34,804 nucleotides of DNA from Acetobacteraceae bacterium (GTDB taxonomy: Bacteria; Pseudomonadota; Alphaproteobacteria; Acetobacterales; Acetobacteraceae): assembly GCA_027353465.1 (NCBI GenBank), contig DAIEHR010000090.1, positions 1-34,804 on the forward strand. Reading direction: 5' to 3'. The notes beneath the pieces are model-generated. The model worked only from the letters and a program-made list of their open reading frames with translations. It did no database searches and was not told where the DNA came from. The position numbers and the translations under genes are program-made. Of this stretch, positions 1,104 to 13,510 are shown piece after piece (position 1 is the stretch's first letter; each line of letters begins with the position of its first letter).

Positions 1104-1745
1104 CTAGCGCCCGAGCACCACATGGGTTGCGAGGTCTGAGGCAGCGGATCGTATGACGCGGTAGCCAAGGGCAGGGAGGTCCAAGCCCTCGAACATCGCC
1201 TCGCCTCGTCCGAGCAGGACTGGCGAGAGCGCAAGGTGCAATTCATCGATCAAACCGGCCTGCAAGTACTGGCGAACGGTCGAGACGCCACCTCCGATCT
1301 TGATGTCGCGGGCTCCCGCGGCCTCGCGTGCGCGGTCGAGCGCGGCGTGGATCCCGTCCGTGACGAAGTGGAACGTGGTGCCGCCTTCCATTATGATCGG
1401 CTCGCGGGCGTGGTGCGTCAGGATAAACGTCGGCGCGTGATAGGGCGGATTGTCCCCCCACCAGCCCTTCCAGCTATCGTCCGGCCATGTCCCGCGCACC
1501 GGACCGAACATGTTCCTGCCAAGAATAAAGGCACCGAAGCCGTCCATCGAGCGGTGGGCAAAGGTTTCGTCCAGGCCCTCGGAGCCACCGCCCTGGCCGA
1601 ACATGGCCTTAAAGGTCTTGGTTCCGAAGAACCATCTGTGAAGCTCCATCCCGCGCTTTCCCAGAGGATCCTGAATACTTTGTTCCGGGCCCGCGCCGAA
1701 CCCATCCAGGGATATGGCAAATCCCGCGACTTTCACACGTCCCAT
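1104..1745 (-). CDS. RibD C-terminal/dihydrofolate reductase-like protein
   Basis: A 213-residue stand-alone RibD-C (DHFR-fold) protein, a family of NADPH-dependent reductases of mostly unknown substrate. Evidence is the N-terminal strand KVAGFAISLDGFGAGP, the central LGRNMFGPVRG segment, and the late IKIGGGVSTVRQYLQAGLID, DELHLALSPVLLGRGEAMF pattern typical of this fold. The ATG at 1745 is chosen because GGGAGGAGG lies directly upstream on the minus strand and the conserved first strand begins a few residues later. A longer frame to 1799 adds residues with no family match. It is a single-gene unit; a 12-bp palindrome lies just upstream. Confidence 0.82.
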   Translation of the reverse strand: MGRVKVAGFAISLDGFGAGPEQSIQDPLGKRGMELHRWFFGTKTFKAMFGQGGGSEGLDETFAHRSMDGFGAFILGRNMFGPVRGTWPDDSWKGWWGDNPPYHAPTFILTHHAREPIIMEGGTTFHFVTDGIHAALDRAREAAGARDIKIGGGVSTVRQYLQAGLIDELHLALSPVLLGRGEAMFEGLDLPALGYRVIRSAASDLATHVVLGR

Positions 1746-1765
1746 CCTGGCCTCCTCCCGCGTTT

Positions 1766-1777
1766 GCAGCATGCTGC
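1766..1777. promoter_or_regulatory. 12-bp perfect palindrome upstream of the RibD-C gene
   Basis: GCAGCATGCTGC is its own reverse complement and lies about 20 bp upstream of the minus-strand ATG at 1745, in the leader. It could be an operator or an RNA hairpin. It is not repeated elsewhere nearby. Confidence 0.35.
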
Positions 1778-1948
1778 CTCGCTGAACAAATGCCTGCAAT
1801 CCGGGACCCTTAGCATGGGGTTCAGTGGCGCCTTTCGATCAAAGGACGAACCCACCGCGCGGACGGGGTCAAGGCGCTTTCTTTGGTCCACGTAACTTAC
1901 GCGGTGGATGTCCGATCTGAGTAAATGCCGGCCCGAAAGCAGGTTGGA

Positions 1949-2128
1949 CCGCCGGGCTTGCCGCCCGGGCGTTGCAGGATAACATTTCGTCCCGGGACGG
2001 AAAAAGGCCAGGACGGAGGTGAGCAACCACATTCCACAGGGTTTGCTTTGGCCCGAATCCATCGCGGTTCTGGGCGCCTCGCCCGATCCGCGGAAGATTC
2101 GCAGGCGATTGTTGCATGACGGCTTTTG
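1949..2128 (+). repeat. Left copy of imperfect direct repeat flanking the ATPase gene
   Basis: This segment matches 3526-3692 without gaps at a constant offset of 1577 over about 167 bp, with about 20 mismatches counted by eye. It covers about 70 bp of leader, the AGGA ribosome binding region, the GTG start and about 33 codons of the acyl-CoA ligase gene. A 12-bp in-frame deletion then precedes the last few matching bases. Most coding differences change the amino acid, which suggests this copy is the one no longer under selection. Weaker similarity (TGCCGGC at 1926 and 3496) may extend the repeat a little upstream. Confidence 0.9.
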
Positions 2129-2135
2129 GATCTGA
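2019..2135 (+). pseudogene. Truncated 5' stub of the acyl-CoA ligase gene
   Basis: Reading from GTG 2019 gives 38 codons and then TGA. The peptide contains LWPESIAVLGASPDP, which corresponds to FWPESIAVLGASPDL at residues 10-24 of the intact ligase encoded from 3596. Frame is kept until the break, apart from loss of four codons (QLRE in the intact protein), after which the sequence leaves the ligase. The remaining 670 residues are absent here. It is read as the displaced original start, or a duplicated start, left by whatever placed the ATPase gene between the two copies. Translation into a functional peptide is unlikely. Confidence 0.8.
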
Positions 2136-2230
2136 GGATGGGTCTTCTGAGCCGGCGCCACCCTATGGCCCACCTTCCCGATGTCGCGTTGACCATTCGA
2201 TGGCTCTTGTAGCGGCGCGGTTGGGGGCGA

Positions 2231-2287
2231 CTAGCGATCTCTAGATAAGTCTAGCGATTTTTCCTAGACTTCGATAGCTTTCGCTAG
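2231..2287. promoter_or_regulatory. CTAG-rich array with 10-bp phasing and nested inverted repeats
   Basis: Five CTAG tetranucleotides occur in 57 bp, at 2231, 2241, 2251, 2264 and 2284, the first three at exact 10-bp steps. AAGTCTAG (2247-2254) and CTAGACTT (2264-2271) form an 8-bp inverted repeat. CTAGCGA at 2231 and 2251 is mirrored by TCGCTAG at 2281-2287. The array ends 27 bp before the ATPase ATG. One-turn phasing suggests cooperative protein binding, for example an operator for autoregulation. A recombination end is also possible. Confidence 0.55.
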
Positions 2288-2314
2288 GCAGCGCAGCAAC
2301 CCCGCGGAGTATCG

Positions 2315-3478
2315 ATGGACCCGTATCGTAACCCATTCGCGCCCGGAGCAGGCAGTCGCCCTCCGGAACTCGCAGGCCGGGATAACATCCTTGATGCGGC
2401 AAAAATTTCGTGTGGAAGGGCCATCCAAGGAAGAACCGCACGTTCGATCATGCTGCTGGGGCTGCGCGGCACTGGCAAAACCGTGCTGCTCAACGAGATC
2501 GGCCGGAACGCTGAGCAAGCGAGGTTGATGGTATCGAAGGTCGAGGCACCGGAAGGGGAAAGTCTCGCCCGCCTGCTGTACCCGGAAATGCGAAAAGTCA
2601 TGAGATCGCTGTCCGGGGTGGAAGCAGCCAAGCAGCTTGCTATCCGTGGTCTCAGAGGGTTGAGGAGCTTTGCCTCGATCTTCAAGGTCGAAATGGCAGG
2701 CGTGGAGGCAGGTGTGGAGCCTGAGCCCGGACTGGCCGATACGGGCGACCTTCAATACGATCTTCCCGACCTTTTCACCCTTATCGGGAAGGCGGCCAAG
2801 GCCGCGGGACGTGGCTGGATACTCCTGATCGACGAAGTACAGTACCTGTCCGAAGTCGATTTTTCGGCACTGATTGTTGCTTTGCACCGGATGTCGCAGG
2901 AGGGCCTGCCCATACTGTTGGTTGGCGCCGGTCTCCCACAAGTGGCCCGTTTGGCGGGCGAAGCCAAGTCTTATGCGGAACGGCTGTTTCAATATCCGGG
3001 TGTGGGGGCGCTCGACGCCGCCTCCGCCAGAAAAGCCGTTGAAAAGCCGATTGTCGAGGAAGATGCTACCATTACACCGGCAGCGATGGATCTTATCATC
3101 GAGCGCACCAAGGGCTATCCTTTCTTCCTTCAGGAATGGGCCTCCGTCCTATGGAATAACGCGGAAGGACCGGAAATTACCTTCGACGATGCCGATAGTT
3201 CCTATAGCGAAACCCTGGCGGCGCTGGACGAAGGGTTTTTCAAGGTGCGGATCGATCGCTTAACGAAGGCGGAGGTCCAGTTCGTGAAGGCAATGGCAAA
3301 TCTTGCGGATGGTCCCTATGCGATGGCGGATATCGCACAGGCACTTCAGCGAACCCAGAAGTCTTTGGGGCCGACGCGGGCAAGCATCATATCGAAGGGC
3401 ATGATTTATAGCACCGATCACGGATATCTGGACTTCACGGTGCCGCTCTTTGCCGAGTTCATGCGGCGCCAGGGATAA
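2315..3478 (+). CDS. AAA-type ATPase (AAA_16/archaeal-ATPase-like), stand-alone
   Basis: A 387-residue predicted cytoplasmic P-loop ATPase. Walker A is GLRGTGKT at 49-56. Walker B is WILLIDE at 168-174, with Asp173 and Glu174. A sensor-1-like strand ILLVGAGLP is at 200-208, and the lid-region signature GYPFFLQEWA at 267-276 is typical of Orc/Cdc6-like and AAA_16 proteins. The N-terminal NPF...PPELAGRD segment precedes the ATPase core, as in many orphan bacterial members. The C-terminal third (about 300-387) looks like a winged-helix domain. GCGGAG lies 6 nt before the ATG. No partner gene is present, so the biological role is unknown. The gene sits between duplicated copies of the next gene's start and after a CTAG array. 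Confidence 0.82.
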   Translation: MDPYRNPFAPGAGSRPPELAGRDNILDAAKISCGRAIQGRTARSIMLLGLRGTGKTVLLNEIGRNAEQARLMVSKVEAPEGESLARLLYPEMRKVMRSLSGVEAAKQLAIRGLRGLRSFASIFKVEMAGVEAGVEPEPGLADTGDLQYDLPDLFTLIGKAAKAAGRGWILLIDEVQYLSEVDFSALIVALHRMSQEGLPILLVGAGLPQVARLAGEAKSYAERLFQYPGVGALDAASARKAVEKPIVEEDATITPAAMDLIIERTKGYPFFLQEWASVLWNNAEGPEITFDDADSSYSETLAALDEGFFKVRIDRLTKAEVQFVKAMANLADGPYAMADIAQALQRTQKSLGPTRASIISKGMIYSTDHGYLDFTVPLFAEFMRRQG

Positions 3479-3494
3479 CCGGTCAAAAATCTCT

Positions 3495-3507
3495 GTGCCG
3501 GCGGCAC
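3495..3507. terminator. Short hairpin after the ATPase gene
   Basis: GTGCC, a 3-nt spacer and GGCAC (3495-3507) form a small stem 16 nt after the ATPase stop, followed by CAAAA. It is too short and lacks a T-tract, so a role in termination is tentative. Confidence 0.3.
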
Positions 3508-3525
3508 CAAAAGCCCGGGACCGGG

Positions 3526-3692
3526 CCGCCAGACTTGCCGCCTTGCCGTCTCGGGATAACACTTCGTCCCGGGACGGAAAAAGGCCAGGACGCAGGTGAG
3601 CAACCACATTCTACAGAGTTTCTTTTGGCCCGAATCCATCGCGGTTCTGGGCGCCTCGCCCGATCTGCACAAGATTCGCGGGCGGTTGCTGC
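3526..3692 (+). repeat. Right copy of the direct repeat (native ligase start)
   Basis: This is the partner of 1949-2128. It contains the ribosome binding site and GTG start used by the intact ligase gene. The longest exact matches are about 30 nt across the leader and about 41 nt within codons 10-23. The copy is continuous with the full reading frame. Confidence 0.9.
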
Positions 3693-5710
3693 ATCAGTTG
3701 CGGGAGAACGGTTTTCCGGGCCGGATATTGCCGATCAACCCAAGCTATCAGCAGATCGACGGGCTGACGTGCTATCCGTCGATCGGGGCGGTTTCGGGCG
3801 GTGTCGATCTGGCGCTGATCGCGATCCCCGCCGCCGGGGTTGCCGCGGCGGTGGAGGAATGTGCCAAAGCTGGCGTGAAGAATACGCTGATCATTTCTTC
3901 GGGTTTCGCGGAGGAAGGCGGGGCGGCCGGCGATATGCAGGCGGAATTGCTCGCGGTGACGCAACGCACCGGAATCCGCGCGTGCGGGCCGAATTGCGAG
4001 GGGTATTATAACGCGCTGGGGCGGGTGGCGACGACGTTCAGCCCCACCGTCGAAACGAAAGAGGATGACAGCCGCACACTCGTCTCATCGAAGCGGGTGG
4101 GGGTGATCGCGCAGTCGGGCGGCATCGGGTTCGCGCTGTTCAATCGCGGCAAGGCGGCTGGGCTGGGCTTCAGCTACGTGATCTCCACCGGCAACGAGGC
4201 CGATCTGGGGATGGCCGATTTCCTGGATTACATGGTGGAAGACCCTCACACCCACGCGGTGATGCTGTTCTGCGAGGCCGTTCGTAACGGCCCCGGATTC
4301 ATCTCCGCCCTGCAAAAGGCTCGGAATTTGGGCAAACCGGTCATCGCGATCAAGGTCGGTCGTTCCGATGCCGGCACGCGGGCGACCGCGTCGCACACCG
4401 CGTCCTTGTCCGGGTCTTACGTTGCCTATCGGGCGATTTTCGAACGCTACGGTGTCATCGAGGCGGAGGACGCCGACGAAGCGGTTGCCATCGCCGGTAT
4501 GGTGCTGACCTGTCCGCTGCCGAAGGGGCGGCGAACCGGGATCATTACGGTTTCCGGCGGCGGCGGCGCGTGGATGGCCGATACGCTGTCGGCGCACGGG
4601 CTGATCGTTCCGAACCTGTCGGCTGAATCCCAGGCGGCGCTGCGGCCGTTGATGCCGTCTTATGGCGCCTCGGCCAATCCGGTCGATGTGACGGCGCAGG
4701 GATCGAATACCGGGCCGGCGATGATGACGGTGATGGAACATCTCGCCGGGTCGGATGAGATCGACATGATCGTGCTGGTGACCTCCTTGGCCAGCGAAAC
4801 CCGCGTGTCGCTGGATGCCGATCGGGTGCGCGCGGTGGCGGAAAGCTGCGGCAAGCCGATGACGGTATGGAGCTATACGCTGCCCTCGGCGTTCGGGCGG
4901 ATTTCGGCGGCGGGGTGCGGGTTGTTCGTGGACAGCAATCTGCGGAACGTCGGTGTGGCGCTGGGCAAGCTGGCGACCTATGCCGAGGCCCGGCAACGTA
5001 CTTTGCCAGAGGCGTTTTCGCCGGTTTCCGGGCAGTTGTATCCCGGCCTGCCGGCGGTCGTGCCGGAGTATCTGGCCAAGCAGGTGCTGGCGGCGTGGCT
5101 GCCGGATACCCGCGAGACATTGGCTGGGTCGGCGGAAGAAGCGGCCGACGCGGCCGAACGCCTGGGCTTTCCCGTAGTGCTGAAGGTGCAATCGCCGGAA
5201 CTGCCGCACAAGACCGAGGCGGGCGGCGTGCGACTGAACCTGGGAAGCCGTCAGGCGGTGACGGATGCCTATACATCCATGTTGGCGGATGTCGGGCGCC
5301 ATGCGCCGGATGCAGGGATCGACGGCGTGCTGGTGCAGCGGATGGCGCCGAAAGGCCATGAACTGGTGATCGGCATGGCCGATGATCCGACGTTCGGCGC
5401 GATCATGATGCTGGGCTTTGGCGGCATCACGGTGGAGCTGTTCGGCGACGTGGCGCACGCCCCGGCACCGGTCGATGAGGCTGAGGCCACGCGGATGATC
5501 CTATCGCTGAAATCGGGCCGCCTGCTCACCGGATTTCGCGGCGCTCGGGCCATCGATCTCGCCCCCATCGCCAGGCTGGTGGCGGCGTTATCCCGAGCGG
5601 CACTGACGTTGCGGGGGCAGGTGAGGGAGTTTGAGTTGAACCCGGTGATCGTGCATGAAGATGGCTCCGGCCTGACCGTCGCCGATGCATTGTTGCTGAT
5701 GAAACCGTAA
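3596..5710 (+). CDS. NDP-forming acyl-CoA synthetase (acetate-CoA ligase family)
   Basis: Makes or uses acyl-CoA with ATP or ADP through a phosphohistidine. The 704 residues fuse all subdomains: a CoA-binding Rossmann domain (about 8-135), succinyl-CoA-ligase-like domains (about 165-450, with GVIAQSGGIG at 169-178) and a C-terminal ATP-grasp domain (about 490-704, with FPVVLKVQSPELPHKTEAGG at 525-544). His267 in ATASHTASLSGS is the expected phosphorylated residue. There is no C-terminal acetyltransferase domain, unlike PatZ. The start is GTG with AGGA 5 nt upstream, and it lies in the duplicated repeat. The stop overlaps the AAGGAGG of the dioxygenase gene that follows, so the two are co-transcribed. 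The acyl substrate cannot be read from sequence. Confidence 0.88.
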   Translation: MSNHILQSFFWPESIAVLGASPDLHKIRGRLLHQLRENGFPGRILPINPSYQQIDGLTCYPSIGAVSGGVDLALIAIPAAGVAAAVEECAKAGVKNTLIISSGFAEEGGAAGDMQAELLAVTQRTGIRACGPNCEGYYNALGRVATTFSPTVETKEDDSRTLVSSKRVGVIAQSGGIGFALFNRGKAAGLGFSYVISTGNEADLGMADFLDYMVEDPHTHAVMLFCEAVRNGPGFISALQKARNLGKPVIAIKVGRSDAGTRATASHTASLSGSYVAYRAIFERYGVIEAEDADEAVAIAGMVLTCPLPKGRRTGIITVSGGGGAWMADTLSAHGLIVPNLSAESQAALRPLMPSYGASANPVDVTAQGSNTGPAMMTVMEHLAGSDEIDMIVLVTSLASETRVSLDADRVRAVAESCGKPMTVWSYTLPSAFGRISAAGCGLFVDSNLRNVGVALGKLATYAEARQRTLPEAFSPVSGQLYPGLPAVVPEYLAKQVLAAWLPDTRETLAGSAEEAADAAERLGFPVVLKVQSPELPHKTEAGGVRLNLGSRQAVTDAYTSMLADVGRHAPDAGIDGVLVQRMAPKGHELVIGMADDPTFGAIMMLGFGGITVELFGDVAHAPAPVDEAEATRMILSLKSGRLLTGFRGARAIDLAPIARLVAALSRAALTLRGQVREFELNPVIVHEDGSGLTVADALLLMKP

Positions 5711-5720
5711 GGAGGTTGCG

Positions 5721-6629
5721 ATGGTGTCGATCCAGCCTACAGGCGCTGTTTTGGGCGCCACTGTCACCGGTATCGATCTGGCTCAGCCGATTCCGCCGGC
5801 GGAATTCGGACGTATCCTGCGTGCCCTCGGCCAGTATGGCGTGCTGCGGTTTCCGGGGCAGAAGCTGGATATCGGCGACGTGAAACGATTTTCGGAATTG
5901 TTCGGGGAGATACAGGGGAATCCGGTGCGGGCGATGGACCGGACGCAGCCGTTTCCCGAGGTCGGTATTCTGTCCAATATCAAGGAAAACGGCGCCTATA
6001 TCGGCAGCCCGGACGCGGGCCAGGACTGGCACACCGATATGTCCTATCGCGACACGATGGGATTCGTGAACGTGCTGTATGGCATTCGGATTCCTCACCG
6101 CGCGGGCAAACCGTTGGGCGGGACCGAGTTCAGCAACATGCACGCCGCCTATAACGCGCTGCCGGAGCAAATCAAGACTAAGTTGGACGGGATGACGGTG
6201 ACCCATAATTTCGAGAAATTCTGGGAACATATGCGCCAGCACAAGAACAGCGACCGGCCGGCGATGACGGAGGAGCAGCGCAAGCGGCGGCCTCCGGCGG
6301 TGCATCCGGTTTTCCTGACTCACCCGATCACGGGACGGAAGGTGCTGTATTGCAACGAAGGCTATGCGGTGCGGATCAACGAGCTGCCGGCGGCCGAAAG
6401 CGACGGGATGCTGGATTATCTGTTCCGGCATCAGTTGGAGATGCGGTTTCGCTATACTCATGACTGGACCGAAAACGATCTGCTGATCTGGGATCATCTG
6501 GGCACCATCCATCGTGCGATCGCCGATTACGGGCCGGATGAAGTCCGCCTGATCCGGCGCTGCCAGGTGATGGCGAACAAGGTGTTCGACCCGGCGTTCC
6601 TGCGGCCGGCCTTGGAGGCGGTTGCCTAG
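5721..6629 (+). CDS. TauD/TfdA family 2-oxoglutarate dioxygenase
   Basis: A 302-residue Fe(II)/2-oxoglutarate-dependent oxygenase. The facial triad is visible: His104 and Asp106 in [10 protein letters not shown], and distal His264 in [19 protein letters not shown]. Arg276 and Arg280 are candidates for the residue that binds 2-oxoglutarate. Length and motif spacing fit the taurine/2,4-D dioxygenase family, but the primary substrate is not identifiable. AAGGAGG begins over the stop of the upstream ligase gene, and only 10 bp separate the two frames, so they form an operon. The pair suggests oxidative release of a carboxylic acid that is then activated to a CoA thioester (inference). Confidence 0.88.
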
Positions 6630-9169: not shown

Positions 9170-12100
9170 TTACGCGTTCAGGTGCCCGCCAGTGGCGCCG
9201 ACATAGCCGATGACGGACAGGCTGCCGATTGTGTCGCCGACATGCATCGCCTGGCTGCCGCTGGTGTTGTAGGCCATCGTCTGCATTGGCGCAGCGCCTT
9301 GCAGGAACGCCTGCTGGCTGGAGAACACGGTGGCGTAGATGCCCGCGCCGGCGGTGGTGGAGAAGTGGCCTCCGGCGATCGGGGTGTTGGTCAGTACGTT
9401 GGTGGTGGCGTCGGCGAAGATTTTCTCGCCGCTGGTGACTTCGCCCTGGAAGTAGATCGTGGCGCCAGACGCAAAGGGATTGGCGTTGTTGCTGATTTCC
9501 ATGAACGCCATGCTGGCCCCGTTGGTGCCGGTGACGGACGCCAAGCCGGCCTGGACCTGTTTCAGGGACACGGTATTGCCGGGGTTGTAGGCGAACTCCA
9601 GCGTTTGGGCGGTTCCATAGATGGCCGACAGGCTGCCGGTGGGTGCGGTGCCGCCGACGCTGACGTTGCTGTTGCAGCCAAGAACCTGGACTTCCTTGGT
9701 GTCGGTCGCGGTGACGGTTGCGCCGGTGGAGGTGACGGTGCTGGTCGTGCCACAGGTGTTGGTGTCGTTCTGGGTCTGGGTAATGTTGGCGGCGTCGCCG
9801 CAATCGGTGTTGCTATACTGGTTGACCGGCGCGCCGGCACATTCGGTGCTGTTGCCGCCAGAGGGCAGATTGTCGCAGGACTTCACGCCGATGTCGTTGT
9901 AGTTGGTGGCGCCGTTGGTATCGTTCTGGTTGAAGCTGCTGAAGCCGGTGCAGTTGCCGTCCCAGTTCAACGTGGAGGCACCACAGTTGTTAGTGCTGTC
10001 GCCGATCGACCATGTCACCTGACCGTTTGTCAGATCCGTGCCGGAGGGAACCGTTGTGGGGCAGCCGGTGAGGAATACATTGCCGGGGGTGCAATTAGCC
10101 GGCAGGGTGGTGACCCAGCAGTTGGTGGACGCGTCGAACACGGTGGTGGCGGCCTTGCAGGCGCTGGAGAACGTGACCTCGGCGTTCGGGCACTTCACGA
10201 TGACTGGGTTGCCCGAACCATGGACGGTGCAGGTCACGTTGCTGAAAGTATAGTTTGCGCCGTCCGCGCAGGACGTTGGCTTGAAGGTGGAGTGCAGCCA
10301 GGCCGTGCAGCCGCTGCTTAGGTCGGAGCCGGAGACGGTCTTGGTGGTGCAGCTTGTGCCTGTGACCGCTTGGGCAGAGACTGTGACGGTGTCGGCGGCG
10401 CCGGCTATGTTGGTGGCATTCGATGTCACCGAACCGCCCTGGCCGCAGGAGCCGCTGCTGGCGTTGCCGCAACCATTGTCGTTATAGCTGGAGCCGGACC
10501 CGCAATAGCTTTGATTTCCACCACCCCAACCGCTGTAGGTGTCACCGCCGCAGGTGGTTCCGAAGTCGTTGTTGCCACCGCCCCAGCTGCTGTAGGTGTT
10601 GTAGCCGCCGTAACTTTGGCTGTAACTGTCGCAGGTCGTGGTGTCGCCGCAGTTACTGTTGACATACTGATTTTCAGGCGTACCGCAATTGTCGGATCCG
10701 GACCCCTGCCACCCGTGACTATCCCACGACCAACCCCAGCCGTTGCCCCCGCATCCGCCGCCGTTGGCGTTAAATCCCAGGTCTTGGTAGCAATATCCGT
10801 TGTAGCCATATCCTGTATTGCAGTCACCGCCATTGCCGTAGCTGCTAAGGTTGTCGCAGGACTTTACGCCGATCTGGTTGTAGTCGGCGGATCCGTTCAG
10901 GCCGTTCGCGGCGAAGGTCTGGTACCCCGTGCAGCCGCCGTCCCACTGAACGCTGGAGGTCCCACAGTTGTTGGAACTGTCTCCGACGTTCCAGGTTACG
11001 CTGGCATTGGTCAGGTTGCAGCCGCTGGGGATGGTCAACGGCAGGCCGGTCAGGAATACGCTGCCGGGGTTGCAATTGGCCGGCAGCGTGGTGACCCAGC
11101 ATTTGGTGGACGCGTCATAGACCGTTGTCGCCTGACCGCAGTTGCTGGAGAATGTGACCTCGGAGTCCGGGCAATCCACTTTGATCGGGGTAGAACCCAC
11201 GCCGGCACCGCTAATCGTGCAGGTTATACCCTGGAATTTGTAGGTCGCGCCATCCGCGCGGGAGGTTGGGTTGAAGCTGGAATGCAGCCACGCGGTGCAG
11301 CCTGAGGATAGGTTTGAGCCGGACGTGGTGTGACACACCGAACCCGAGGTGCCGGCAGTGCAATTGATCTGGCTGACCGTCTCTGAATACACCCAGGTCT
11401 GTCCGGGGTTCAGTATGCCGTTGGTGCCGGTTGTGACCAGGGTGGGGGTGACGATGTCCGGGTTGGCCGCGGAGCCGATGTTGTCGGTAATCTTGACGTT
11501 GGTCAGCGCGGTGGAGCCGGTGTTGGTGACATTGAACGTATAAGTTACCTGGCCGCACTGGTTTACCACGACCGAACAAGGCTGCTTCAGAACCGTAATG
11601 CCGCTGGCGTTTTGCAGACCGGCGTCGATGGTGTTGTTCGTCTGGCCGGCCGCCAAAGTGATGGCGTCGGTGACGCCAGTCGATTGATTGGCATTACTAT
11701 CGATCGCGGTATTGGTGCCGGCGTATTGAGGGGTGAAGCTCTCACCGGTTGGGGCAGTGAACGCGACCTCATAGGAACCGGCATTCAGCCCGGTGAAGGC
11801 ATAATACCCCGAACTGTTGGTGGTTGTCGTTGCCAACACCACGCCGCCTGTGCCGGTCAGGTTTAACGTCTGTGCCCCGGCGCTGTAGAGGGCGAGAGAC
11901 TTGTTTTCGACAATGCCGTTATAGGTGACGTTATCGACATACAGATTGCGATCTGTTGATGCTGTTCCGGCGTAAGCATCGTTGAGGAAATGCACGGCCA
12001 CCGTCGGATTGTTGCCGAAATCCCCTTGCAGCGTCAGCAGGGTGTCCTGGCCCGCGGTATGGGACGCCGTCGCGGTGTAGGTGCCTCCGACCTGCTTGCC

Positions 12101-13510
12101 GTTGACGGTCACAGTATATTGGGCGTTACCTTGGTAGGCGTCCTCGGAGATCGAGAGGATCAGCGTGTCAGCGGCCAGCAGGGAAACCTTCACGCCGCTG
12201 ACACCTGGTTCACCGGCGTTTTGGATGCCGTTGCGGTTCAGATCCTGCCATACGAAGTCGCCGATCGCTCCGGTAGGGGCGAAGCCTGCATTGACATATT
12301 GCTGTGTCTGGCCGGCAGTCAGCGTGATCGGGGCGGTGAGACCGGTAATGGCATTGGCGCTGGAATCGTTCGGCTGGAAGTTCGCACCCTGAGTCGTAAA
12401 CGCATCTGTCGTGGGGGCAAGGAATTCGACCGTGTAGGTGCCCGGATTCAGATTGGTGAAGGCATAGTTGCCGCTTAGATCTGTCGTGGTGGTGCTGATG
12501 ATCGAGCCGGCGCTGTTCAGCAAATCGACTGTAGTACCCGCGAGAAGCCTGTCCCCCGCGTCGTTGATGCCGTTGCTGTTGGTGTCGAAAAAGGTTGTTC
12601 CAGTTATAGAGGCTGGCGGAGAAACCAGACCGGCGTTGACGTTGTTGTCCACCTGTCCGGCGGCAAGCGTGATCGGGGCGGTGAGGCCGGTGGAGACGTT
12701 GGCGCTGGAGTCGGTGGCGGTCTGTGTCGCGCCCTGGGTAGTGAACTGCGTACCGGGTGGCGCGACGAACTGGACCTCGTAGGTGCCGGCGTTCAGGCCG
12801 GTGAAGGCATAATGCCCGCTGCTGTCGGTGGTGGTGGTCTGCAGGACCGCCCCGGTGTTGTTCAGCAGATCGACGGTGACTCCGGCGACGGTCGTTTCTC
12901 CGGGGGTAAAGAGACCGTCGCGGTTGGTGTCCATCCACACGGTGGAGCCGATCGAAGCAGTGGCGGACGGTGCGGCAATGGAAGATGGTGCGGCAATGGT
13001 ACCGAAGCTCTGGTCGATCTTGCTGATGTGAATCTCCGAAGAGGAATTGCCGGTGCCGTCAACCGCCATCGTCAGACTAATCTTGACGTTCACGGTCTGC
13101 TCAGCCTGAATGAGTATTATACTTGGCGCATTGGTAACGCCGCCAGTAAAAGTTTCGCTTCCCAGAAGATTTCCCGAGCTGTCATAGACGCTTTCAACCG
13201 CGACAAGACTGACGCCCGGTCCAGACAGGACGTCGGCCACGTAAACCTGACCCACCGAGTCGATCAGCGAAGTTGAAGAGGTTGAACTGACAGAATAACT
13301 GAAGTTAACAACCTGCGACGACCCGGCATAATATACCGCAGCGCCAACGCCGCCCCATGACAATTCGGCGCCTGTCGGAATTGCGACGCCTTGAAGGGTT
13401 CCAGGACTCGACGTGAAAGGTGCGAACGTGCCGGTATCGGCCTCGTTTACCGCGATGTTGGTGAACGAAAGACCGTTCGAACTAACCGGAGAGAACGAAG
13501 CTGAAGACAT
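9170..13510 (-). CDS. Giant repeat surface protein with SdrD_B-like repeats and nested CBM60-like module
   Basis: 1446 residues, predicted extracellular. Order: a Ser/Thr-rich N-terminal domain (1-175); SdrD_B-like Ig repeats at about 185-295, 300-410 and 414-633; a DUF11-like domain (about 638-712); a Cys-rich module (about 729-955); a Gly/Asn/Ser/Tyr-rich linker (about 890-1050, partly overlapping); a second Cys-rich module (about 1057-1239); and a C-terminal domain (about 1280-1446) ending in GYVGATGGHLNA. Residues about 446-532, with SISEDAYQGNAQ and FLNDAYAGT...DRNLYVDNVTY, resemble the calcium-dependent xylan-binding CBM60 family and interrupt the third Ig repeat. GAGGAAG precedes the ATG. 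A TGA two codons upstream closes the frame, so no N-terminal signal peptide is hidden, and there is no C-terminal PEP-CTERM tail. Type I export is therefore inferred, but no transporter is in view. Confidence 0.85.
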   Translation of the reverse strand: MSSASFSPVSSNGLSFTNIAVNEADTGTFAPFTSSPGTLQGVAIPTGAELSWGGVGAAVYYAGSSQVVNFSYSVSSTSSTSLIDSVGQVYVADVLSGPGVSLVAVESVYDSSGNLLGSETFTGGVTNAPSIILIQAEQTVNVKISLTMAVDGTGNSSSEIHISKIDQSFGTIAAPSSIAAPSATASIGSTVWMDTNRDGLFTPGETTVAGVTVDLLNNTGAVLQTTTTDSSGHYAFTGLNAGTYEVQFVAPPGTQFTTQGATQTATDSSANVSTGLTAPITLAAGQVDNNVNAGLVSPPASITGTTFFDTNSNGINDAGDRLLAGTTVDLLNSAGSIISTTTTDLSGNYAFTNLNPGTYTVEFLAPTTDAFTTQGANFQPNDSSANAITGLTAPITLTAGQTQQYVNAGFAPTGAIGDFVWQDLNRNGIQNAGEPGVSGVKVSLLAADTLILSISEDAYQGNAQYTVTVNGKQVGGTYTATASHTAGQDTLLTLQGDFGNNPTVAVHFLNDAYAGTASTDRNLYVDNVTYNGIVENKSLALYSAGAQTLNLTGTGGVVLATTTTNSSGYYAFTGLNAGSYEVAFTAPTGESFTPQYAGTNTAIDSNANQSTGVTDAITLAAGQTNNTIDAGLQNASGITVLKQPCSVVVNQCGQVTYTFNVTNTGSTALTNVKITDNIGSAANPDIVTPTLVTTGTNGILNPGQTWVYSETVSQINCTAGTSGSVCHTTSGSNLSSGCTAWLHSSFNPTSRADGATYKFQGITCTISGAGVGSTPIKVDCPDSEVTFSSNCGQATTVYDASTKCWVTTLPANCNPGSVFLTGLPLTIPSGCNLTNASVTWNVGDSSNNCGTSSVQWDGGCTGYQTFAANGLNGSADYNQIGVKSCDNLSSYGNGGDCNTGYGYNGYCYQDLGFNANGGGCGGNGWGWSWDSHGWQGSGSDNCGTPENQYVNSNCGDTTTCDSYSQSYGGYNTYSSWGGGNNDFGTTCGGDTYSGWGGGNQSYCGSGSSYNDNGCGNASSGSCGQGGSVTSNATNIAGAADTVTVSAQAVTGTSCTTKTVSGSDLSSGCTAWLHSTFKPTSCADGANYTFSNVTCTVHGSGNPVIVKCPNAEVTFSSACKAATTVFDASTNCWVTTLPANCTPGNVFLTGCPTTVPSGTDLTNGQVTWSIGDSTNNCGASTLNWDGNCTGFSSFNQNDTNGATNYNDIGVKSCDNLPSGGNSTECAGAPVNQYSNTDCGDAANITQTQNDTNTCGTTSTVTSTGATVTATDTKEVQVLGCNSNVSVGGTAPTGSLSAIYGTAQTLEFAYNPGNTVSLKQVQAGLASVTGTNGASMAFMEISNNANPFASGATIYFQGEVTSGEKIFADATTNVLTNTPIAGGHFSTTAGAGIYATVFSSQQAFLQGAAPMQTMAYNTSGSQAMHVGDTIGSLSVIGYVGATGGHLNA
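9794..10342 (-). repeat. Second copy of the Cys-rich module in the surface protein
   Basis: Encodes residues about 1057-1239. It shares with the first copy (residues about 729-955) the ordered landmarks DLSSGCTAWLHS, CWVTTLPANC, NVFLTG, VTW...GDS, NNCG, W.GNCTGF, NDIGVKSCDNL and a terminal NQYSNTDCGD. The first copy has a long Gly/Asn-rich insertion before its closing NQYVNSNCGD. The pair is an internal duplication, and most of the paired cysteines are conserved. Confidence 0.85.
10646..11329 (-). repeat. First copy of the Cys-rich module in the surface protein
   Basis: Encodes residues about 729-955 and is the partner of 9794-10342. The insertion at about 890-940 is rich in Gly, Asn, Tyr, Trp and Cys (for example GGCGGNGWGWSWDSHGW) and looks like a flexible or self-associating linker. 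The overall pattern W-TT-P---VFL-GL---P----VTW and a closing CGTPEN recalls modules in large repeat proteins of other environmental bacteria (from memory). Confidence 0.8.
11915..12175 (-). other. CBM60-like domain inserted within an SdrD_B-like repeat
   Basis: Encodes residues about 446-532. The flanking halves DFVWQDLNRNGIQNAGEPGV (419-438) and LATTTTNSSGYYAFTGLNAG (559-578) are the two ends of a single SdrD_B-like repeat that is contiguous in the two preceding repeats. The inserted segment has the TLILSISEDAYQG and NLYVDNVTYNG patterns of calcium-dependent xylan-binding modules. Confidence 0.65.

Follow-up and report, generated by a model that had tools for sequence, protein, structure and literature searches.

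A duplicated CoA ligase gene start around a solitary AAA+ ATPase gene in an Acetobacteraceae bacterium

It is a long-standing question how a single gene passes between bacteria when no transposon, integrase or plasmid carries it. Nobusato et al. (2000) reportedly described insertion with a long target duplication for restriction-modification (RM) genes. Long target duplications, on the order of 100 bp, are given for some RM systems in a part of PMC3874152, and passages of PMC1643837 and PMC3031569 also deal with RM insertion with a long target duplication. A passage of PMC3240628 describes another route, in which homologous recombination occurs at one end and illegitimate recombination at the other. 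We found no account of the ATPase studied here as a mobile gene in the open-licence PMC literature.

The window, by which we mean the whole stretch of 34,804 nucleotides that was analysed, carries the start of a CoA ligase gene twice, with an AAA+ ATPase gene between the copies. This duplicated start is a real feature of the locus, which is made up as follows.

1104..1799, minus strand: RibD_C-domain gene (Pfam), the left neighbour
1946..2117, plus strand: upstream repeat copy, decayed, with the leader and 33 initial codons of the ligase (repeat search)
2019..2135, plus strand: ligase stub of 38 codons and a stop, GTG start; foreign sequence past codon 33
2107..3482, plus strand: stretch of the unit homologous to an unrelated locus in genome G005 (88.6% identity)
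2231..2287, plus strand: leader array, CTAG words at ~10-nt phasing, with exact CTAGN6CTAGN6CTAG at 2231-2254
2315..3478, plus strand: AAA+ ATPase gene, 387 aa (AAA_16 by Pfam; C-terminal winged helix predicted by a model)
3474..3523, plus strand: native upstream flank of copy 2, homologous to genome G020; no counterpart beside copy 1
3523..3694, plus strand: downstream repeat copy, start of the intact ligase (repeat search)
3596..5710, plus strand: CoA ligase gene, GTG start (CoA_binding_2, Succ_CoA_lig, ATP-grasp_5)

The direct repeat (1946-2117 and 3523-3694) was 172 nt long and 88% identical, with a spacing of 1577 bp, and consisted of 73 nt of leader and 33 ligase codons. The two copies differed in 9 of the 33 codons, 7 of them non-synonymously, and at 11 of the 73 leader positions. 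Compared with G020 and G018, copy 1 had 14 private changes over the 172 positions and copy 2 had three. The ligase reading frame was open across 704 codons. These results bear out the earlier note on this DNA, which had described a ligase start occurring twice in the same orientation 1577 bp apart, a shared coding part of about 33 codons, a 38-codon stub with mostly amino-acid-changing differences, and a downstream copy serving the intact ligase. The repeat that it had placed between borders 1949 and 3692 was found, with these borders 2-3 nt short of the true ends. It had also seen only an ATPase gene and its leader between the copies and no integrase or transposase; indeed, the ATPase was the only gene assigned in the insert, and neither enzyme was found in the 19 ORFs of the window that were submitted to Pfam (the window has 121 ORFs of at least 90 aa). 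A leftward extension of the repeat failed a shuffle test, in which 108 of 500 shuffles scored as high. At E ≤ 1e-5 the window had four self-matches, one being the ligase repeat; the other three lay within 9.9-12.9 kb, inside a 1446-aa ORF with SdrD_B domains whose internal repeats span 9867-12877. An assembly artefact was considered, the source being a fragmented MAG (77% complete, 413 contigs), and was judged unlikely because positions 2107-3482 are contiguous in G005 and the copies differ by 12%.

A ligase query against 98 genomes gave some match in 72, and 25 genomes of the genus had a ligase locus that included the start (L003-L027, 74-98% protein identity). A single ligase start was present at all 25 loci, in a test that detected both starts in the window, and the ATPase was absent from all of them, L012 having only ~0.4 kb of upstream sequence. 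A donor-type arrangement, with the ATPase, the ligase and a single start, was not found among these loci either. The comparison with close relatives that the earlier note had proposed thus gave empty sites, and its view that foreign DNA had arrived at the ligase was supported, with the unit present elsewhere in G005. In G020, homology to the window resumed at 3474 and extended left to the RibD_C neighbour, and the RibD_C gene was also near the ligase (91%). In G018, homology started with the repeat, and no RibD_C gene was found in its contig. The sequence upstream of the ligase differed among G000, G018 and G020, and the different arrangements in G020 and G018 indicate that this region was rearranged within the group. 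The ligase of G005 and G015 (L005, L006) directly followed another reading frame, which we take to be an acyl-CoA dehydrogenase-like end; the leader in G000, G018 and G020 was different.

At the unrelated site in G005, a genome of the same genus, the ATPase itself was 93% identical to that of the window. The relatives G015 and G025 had 258 nt and 76 nt, respectively, between the flanks of this site, compared to 1.9 kb in G005, and G012 had ~2.2 kb of other DNA with no ATPase match. No duplication was found at the ATPase site of G005. Short dispersed repeats to the left of this ATPase (L084, 5530-5796) recurred genome-wide (up to 95% over 152 nt) and also occurred, more weakly, in relatives.

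Pfam gave only AAA-type domains for the ATPase, AAA_16 above and ATPase_2 below the cut-off. Scores against NCBIfam models were far below the cut-offs, and the best PADLOC match (mad8, E 2.9e-5) was partial. With a structure alignment of 57 sequences (the window together with 56 of the 76 usable loci), the protein is predicted to be an AAA+ core with Walker motifs, a lid and a winged helix, of the Orc/Cdc6-STAND-TnsC type. CTAG-like words averaged 4.8 per 100 nt of leader at 54 loci with at least 70% identity, 3.0 at 53-70% (17 loci) and 1.1 below 53% (42 loci), compared to 0.39 per 100 nt in 280 control windows. The exact pattern CTAGN6CTAGN6CTAG occurred only at the window ATPase leader in G000 and only at the ATPase leader in G005, and was absent from G020 and G018; the reversed-pattern control (12-25 matches per genome) consists of GATC words and is unfair for the rare CTAG. 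An inverted repeat beat all 20 shuffles in 47 of 113 leaders, the window leader not among them. The array travels with the ATPase gene and is a probable operator.

Relatives of the ATPase in the best 80 of 96 loci from a scan of genome contigs were 46-93% identical and came from Alpha-, Beta- and Gammaproteobacteria, with a small number from other groups. A match at E ≤ 1e-100 was present in 8 of 398 genomes drawn from the phylum, the own genome included. The tree had 77 rows, the window and 76 loci, after removal of L129, L133 and L148 (internal stops or a frameshift) and L154 (truncated at the end of its contig). Its class labels needed 7 changes, compared to a minimum of 3, and starred branches forced only 1-2 per group; transfer of the ATPase between classes is therefore likely, if short of proven. 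The pair comparison covered 1334 pairs, after exclusion of 125 whose flanks were shared and 52 whose flanks were short. In the 53 pairs with at least 78% DNA identity, the shared stretch comprised the ORF and extended beyond it by a median of 66 nt on the upstream side (quartiles 12-86) and, counted from the last codon, 3 nt on the downstream side (quartiles -2 to 7). Exceptions reached 73 nt past the last codon in L103/L155, 49 nt in L141/L142 and more in others. Decay of unselected flanks may have shortened the shared stretch between loci. No partner gene recurred widely; the widest shared family, presumably LysR-like, occurred at 5 of 54 distinct loci at 70% or above (60 rows less five duplicates and one unscanned locus). 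The duplicates L033 and L060-L063 were removed from counts, as was L066 in later comparisons.

Carriers of ATPase relatives included 118 plasmid records, all but one below 60% identity, one phage record and 19 viral contigs. One viral contig (L217) had a 78% relative near a C-5 cytosine DNA methylase gene. Distant cousins often preceded a carB-like gene (19 loci, one cluster; Pfam on L162 only), with what we take to be a carA-like end upstream. These cousins, which include L039, L040, L042, L064, L065, L067 and L162, have a fixed site, as opposed to the roaming subfamily. In L092, L120 and L121 the ATPase had an elongation factor P gene in its vicinity (identified by Pfam in L092 and L121), L120 and L121 being colinear. 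The left flanks of L110 and L112 were 90% alike and their ATPases 76% in DNA, which points to two nearby arrivals or a replacement.

We looked for direct repeats (E ≤ 1e-5) up to 2 kb from the ATPase at 112 loci, those with short flanks having been dropped. They flanked the ATPase at 11 of the 112 (p ~0.009). Among the controls, repeats occurred at 2 of 116 positions (two fixed places per long locus, not random) and at 2 of 121 frames, which were open for 280-600 codons and need not be genes. Without the weak cases L145 and L159, the count for the ATPase was 9 of 112 (p = 0.03). The remaining 101 of the 112 loci had no flanking repeat, so that ATPase homologues beside a duplicated gene end, which the earlier note had thought worth searching for, exist at a minority of loci. 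Its suggestion that the ATPase itself might be responsible is unproven, given these 101 loci, the absence of a duplication in G005 and the absence of a left copy in L096. It had reasoned that an ATPase without a duplicated start would separate the two events; G005 and L096 are such cases, and arrival and duplication are thus separable.

Five tight cases stood out, in which the right copy started at most 85 nt from the homologous last codon, as near as in only 1 of the 121 control frames. These were the window (172 nt, CoA ligase 5′ end), L114 from Rheinheimera lutimaris (51 nt, 5′ end of a metallo-beta-lactamase-fold gene), L091 (~100 nt, arsC 3′ end), L095 from Pseudomonas (156 nt, 3′ end of a CbiG_N/TP_methylase gene) and L157 (96 nt, end of a reading frame), with repeats ranging from 51 to 172 nt. 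The intact gene lay on the 3′ side of the ATPase in the window, L091, L095 and L114, the tight cases where this could be told. Second genes were present in the inserts of L095 (a Fic-domain protein, 4476-5903) and L114 (a PRiA4_ORF3 protein, 5378-5800). In L103, L138, L141 and L147, the copies were 200-961 nt from the ORF end, and some were a whole gene or an integrase; the L103 repeat was 719 nt long. No conserved or inverted element ends were found among the insert ends of 6 loci and the edges of 13 loci. Exact words of 11-13 nt near the ends were no commoner than in controls, and those of at least 14 nt occurred in 4 of 109 cases compared to 0 of 203 controls.

The best relatives placed the resumption of native homology on the right close to the end of the stop codon, at -4 for the window with G020 (91%), +6 for L114 with G1015 (93%) and +8 for L095 with G925 (86%). 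Other relatives resumed later (G018 at +45 for the window; G1018 at +41, G1008 at +39 and G1006 at +52 for L114; six further relatives of L095 at +105 to +108; the four relatives of L091 at +85 to +102), and the sharp joint therefore rests on one relative per locus at three loci. The stretch adjacent to the stop codon had no match at the left copy of L114, and only words of up to 17 nt (E 0.05 or worse) at those of the window and L095. In L114, the left copy and its upstream sequence were of the G1018 type (87% over 1.5 kb leftward), as opposed to the right copy and its flank toward the ATPase, which were of the G1015 type; position 5183 split likewise. In the window, none of the 172 positions had a base common to the two copies and different from both G020 and G018; at one site, copy 1 agreed with G018 and copy 2 agreed with G020. 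These flank comparisons speak for two adjacent alleles rather than for a single target duplicated in place. The L114 left copy was followed by a dispersed repeat and then by a 35-40-nt piece like the upstream sequence of G1006 and G1008, so the history of L114 is more complex. L114 had also been considered as a clean in-place duplication on the basis of bases common to its copies and missing in L200 and L199, an argument that falls because G1015 and G1006 also have those bases.

The window is best explained as holding a copy of a unit that roams horizontally and consists of an AAA+ ATPase gene and the phased leader belonging to it. For the arrangement around it, we tentatively prefer the import of a block of donor DNA, with a homology joint on the gene side, an illegitimate joint on the other and the resident gene end left behind, and put this at a little under an even chance. 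In some donor, the unit would have become joined just past its stop codon to native sequence upstream of the ligase. A block with the unit, this upstream flank and the ligase start would then have entered the present lineage, recombining homologously with the resident on the ligase side and illegitimately on the other side, at the short word TTGYTGCAT within the ligase start already present. That start would have remained as a stub and decayed, and the incoming one would serve the intact gene. Such a process would be akin to homology-facilitated illegitimate recombination. The donor, the direction of transfer and both types of crossover are inferred; the ATPase gene is presumably kept for some benefit, for example defence. 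The 9-nt word at the left joint overlaps the stub end and reads TTGTTGCAT in the window and TTGCTGCAT in the ligase and G005; its match with one difference suggests joining at a short homology. L096, with the same ATPase-gene joint as L095 and no left copy within 13 kb, has the arrangement expected of a donor. The proposal of the earlier note that an element carried a replacement start comes close to this history, with the addition that the right copy came with its own upstream flank. Against block import stand the failure to find a donor among the 25 ligase loci, the later resumption of homology in the other relatives, the two gene pieces of G1015 without an ATPase in the stretch examined, the more complex history of L114 and the presence of repeats at only 11 of the 112 loci, among them two weak cases and four with copies further out. 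The first joining of the unit at its stop codon leaves room for a self-sufficient mobile element.

The strongest rival, in our estimate rather unlikely, is insertion in place with a long target duplication, after which the left copy would have decayed, its outermost stretch being lost. The layout, a length on the order of 100 bp and the lack of a transposase match what passages of PMC3874152, PMC3031569 and PMC1643837 describe for RM genes; furthermore, different loci have different targets, and the changes in copy 1 are mostly amino-acid-changing, as in an unselected stub. A target duplicated in place should, however, reach the right end of the unit on both sides. Since native sequence resumes at the stop codon and the left copy lacks that stretch at all three loci compared, the explanation fits only loosely, and neither the two types of copy in L114 nor the absence of a site uniting the window copies agrees with it.

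It is less probable still that the gene end was duplicated first, or independently, at a rearrangement-prone site and that the ATPase arrived later between the copies. The Rheinheimera target site may be prone to duplication without the ATPase, because G1015 (L236) had two pieces of the metallo-beta-lactamase-fold gene ~3 kb apart (2129-2396 and 5401-5649) and no ATPase in the 5.7 kb examined, up to the contig end; the variable region upstream of the ligase in G000, G018 and G020 points the same way. However, copy 1 ends no more than 11 nt from the left edge of the unit, no ligase locus of the 25 combines a duplicated start with the absence of the ATPase, and repeats are commoner at the ATPase than at control frames.

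The least probable rival is a self-mobilising one-gene element in which the ATPase would bind the CTAG array and drive insertion, with the stop codon as its right end: the right end does lie near the stop codon in the pairwise and the three empty-site comparisons, the array moves along with the gene and the fold is common to TnsC, MuB and Orc/Cdc6, but Pfam gives only AAA-type domains, there is no conserved terminal motif, the right end varies (as in L103/L155 and L141/L142) and a fold alone is no proof of function, which together make it very improbable. We give hardly more credence to the related proposal that the ATPase and its leader form a minimal mobile element, sufficient in itself and ~1.25 kb long between the array and the stop codon, whose protein would bind the array, recruit host replication or repair machinery and place the unit beside gene ends. 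If true, this would be a mobile element without a nuclease or transposase of its own; insertion driven by the ATPase itself is unproven.

Block import, our preferred history, can now be set beside the known systems. A classical DNA transposon was rejected, as a fixed short target duplication and terminal inverted repeats were not seen, and so was an integrase-borne island with a replacement gene end, as no integrase was assigned in the window insert. The archaeal proteins PAB2304 (2qen) and SSO1545 (2fna) and Orc/Cdc6 are 13-16% identical to the ATPase, which is bacterial and has a travelling phased leader. Compared to the transposition ATPases TnsC and MuB, it has no transposase partner, and no conserved ends were seen. 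The likeness to homology-facilitated illegitimate recombination would lie in homology on one side and a joint with short or no homology on the other, with a partial copy of the anchor gene expected. The native gene and flank are on the right at three loci; the other-side joint has its 9-nt word in the window. Such a process is here deduced from finished loci. As in RM insertion with a long target duplication, a transposase-free gene lies between long direct repeats of a target end, of variable length between the ATPase loci, and the target stays intact. The cargo differs, being a solitary AAA+ ATPase, and so do the left copy, which stops short of the flank at the right end of the unit, and L114 with its copies of two types. 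We do not assign the locus to this class, though later loss in the left copy may have occurred. The long repeats at RM genes were read as target duplications, and a similar footprint appears here for a different type of gene. If two alleles do lie side by side at these loci, a footprint of this kind can be what a one-sided import of DNA leaves behind, and the abrupt end of the unit at its stop codon calls for an explanation.
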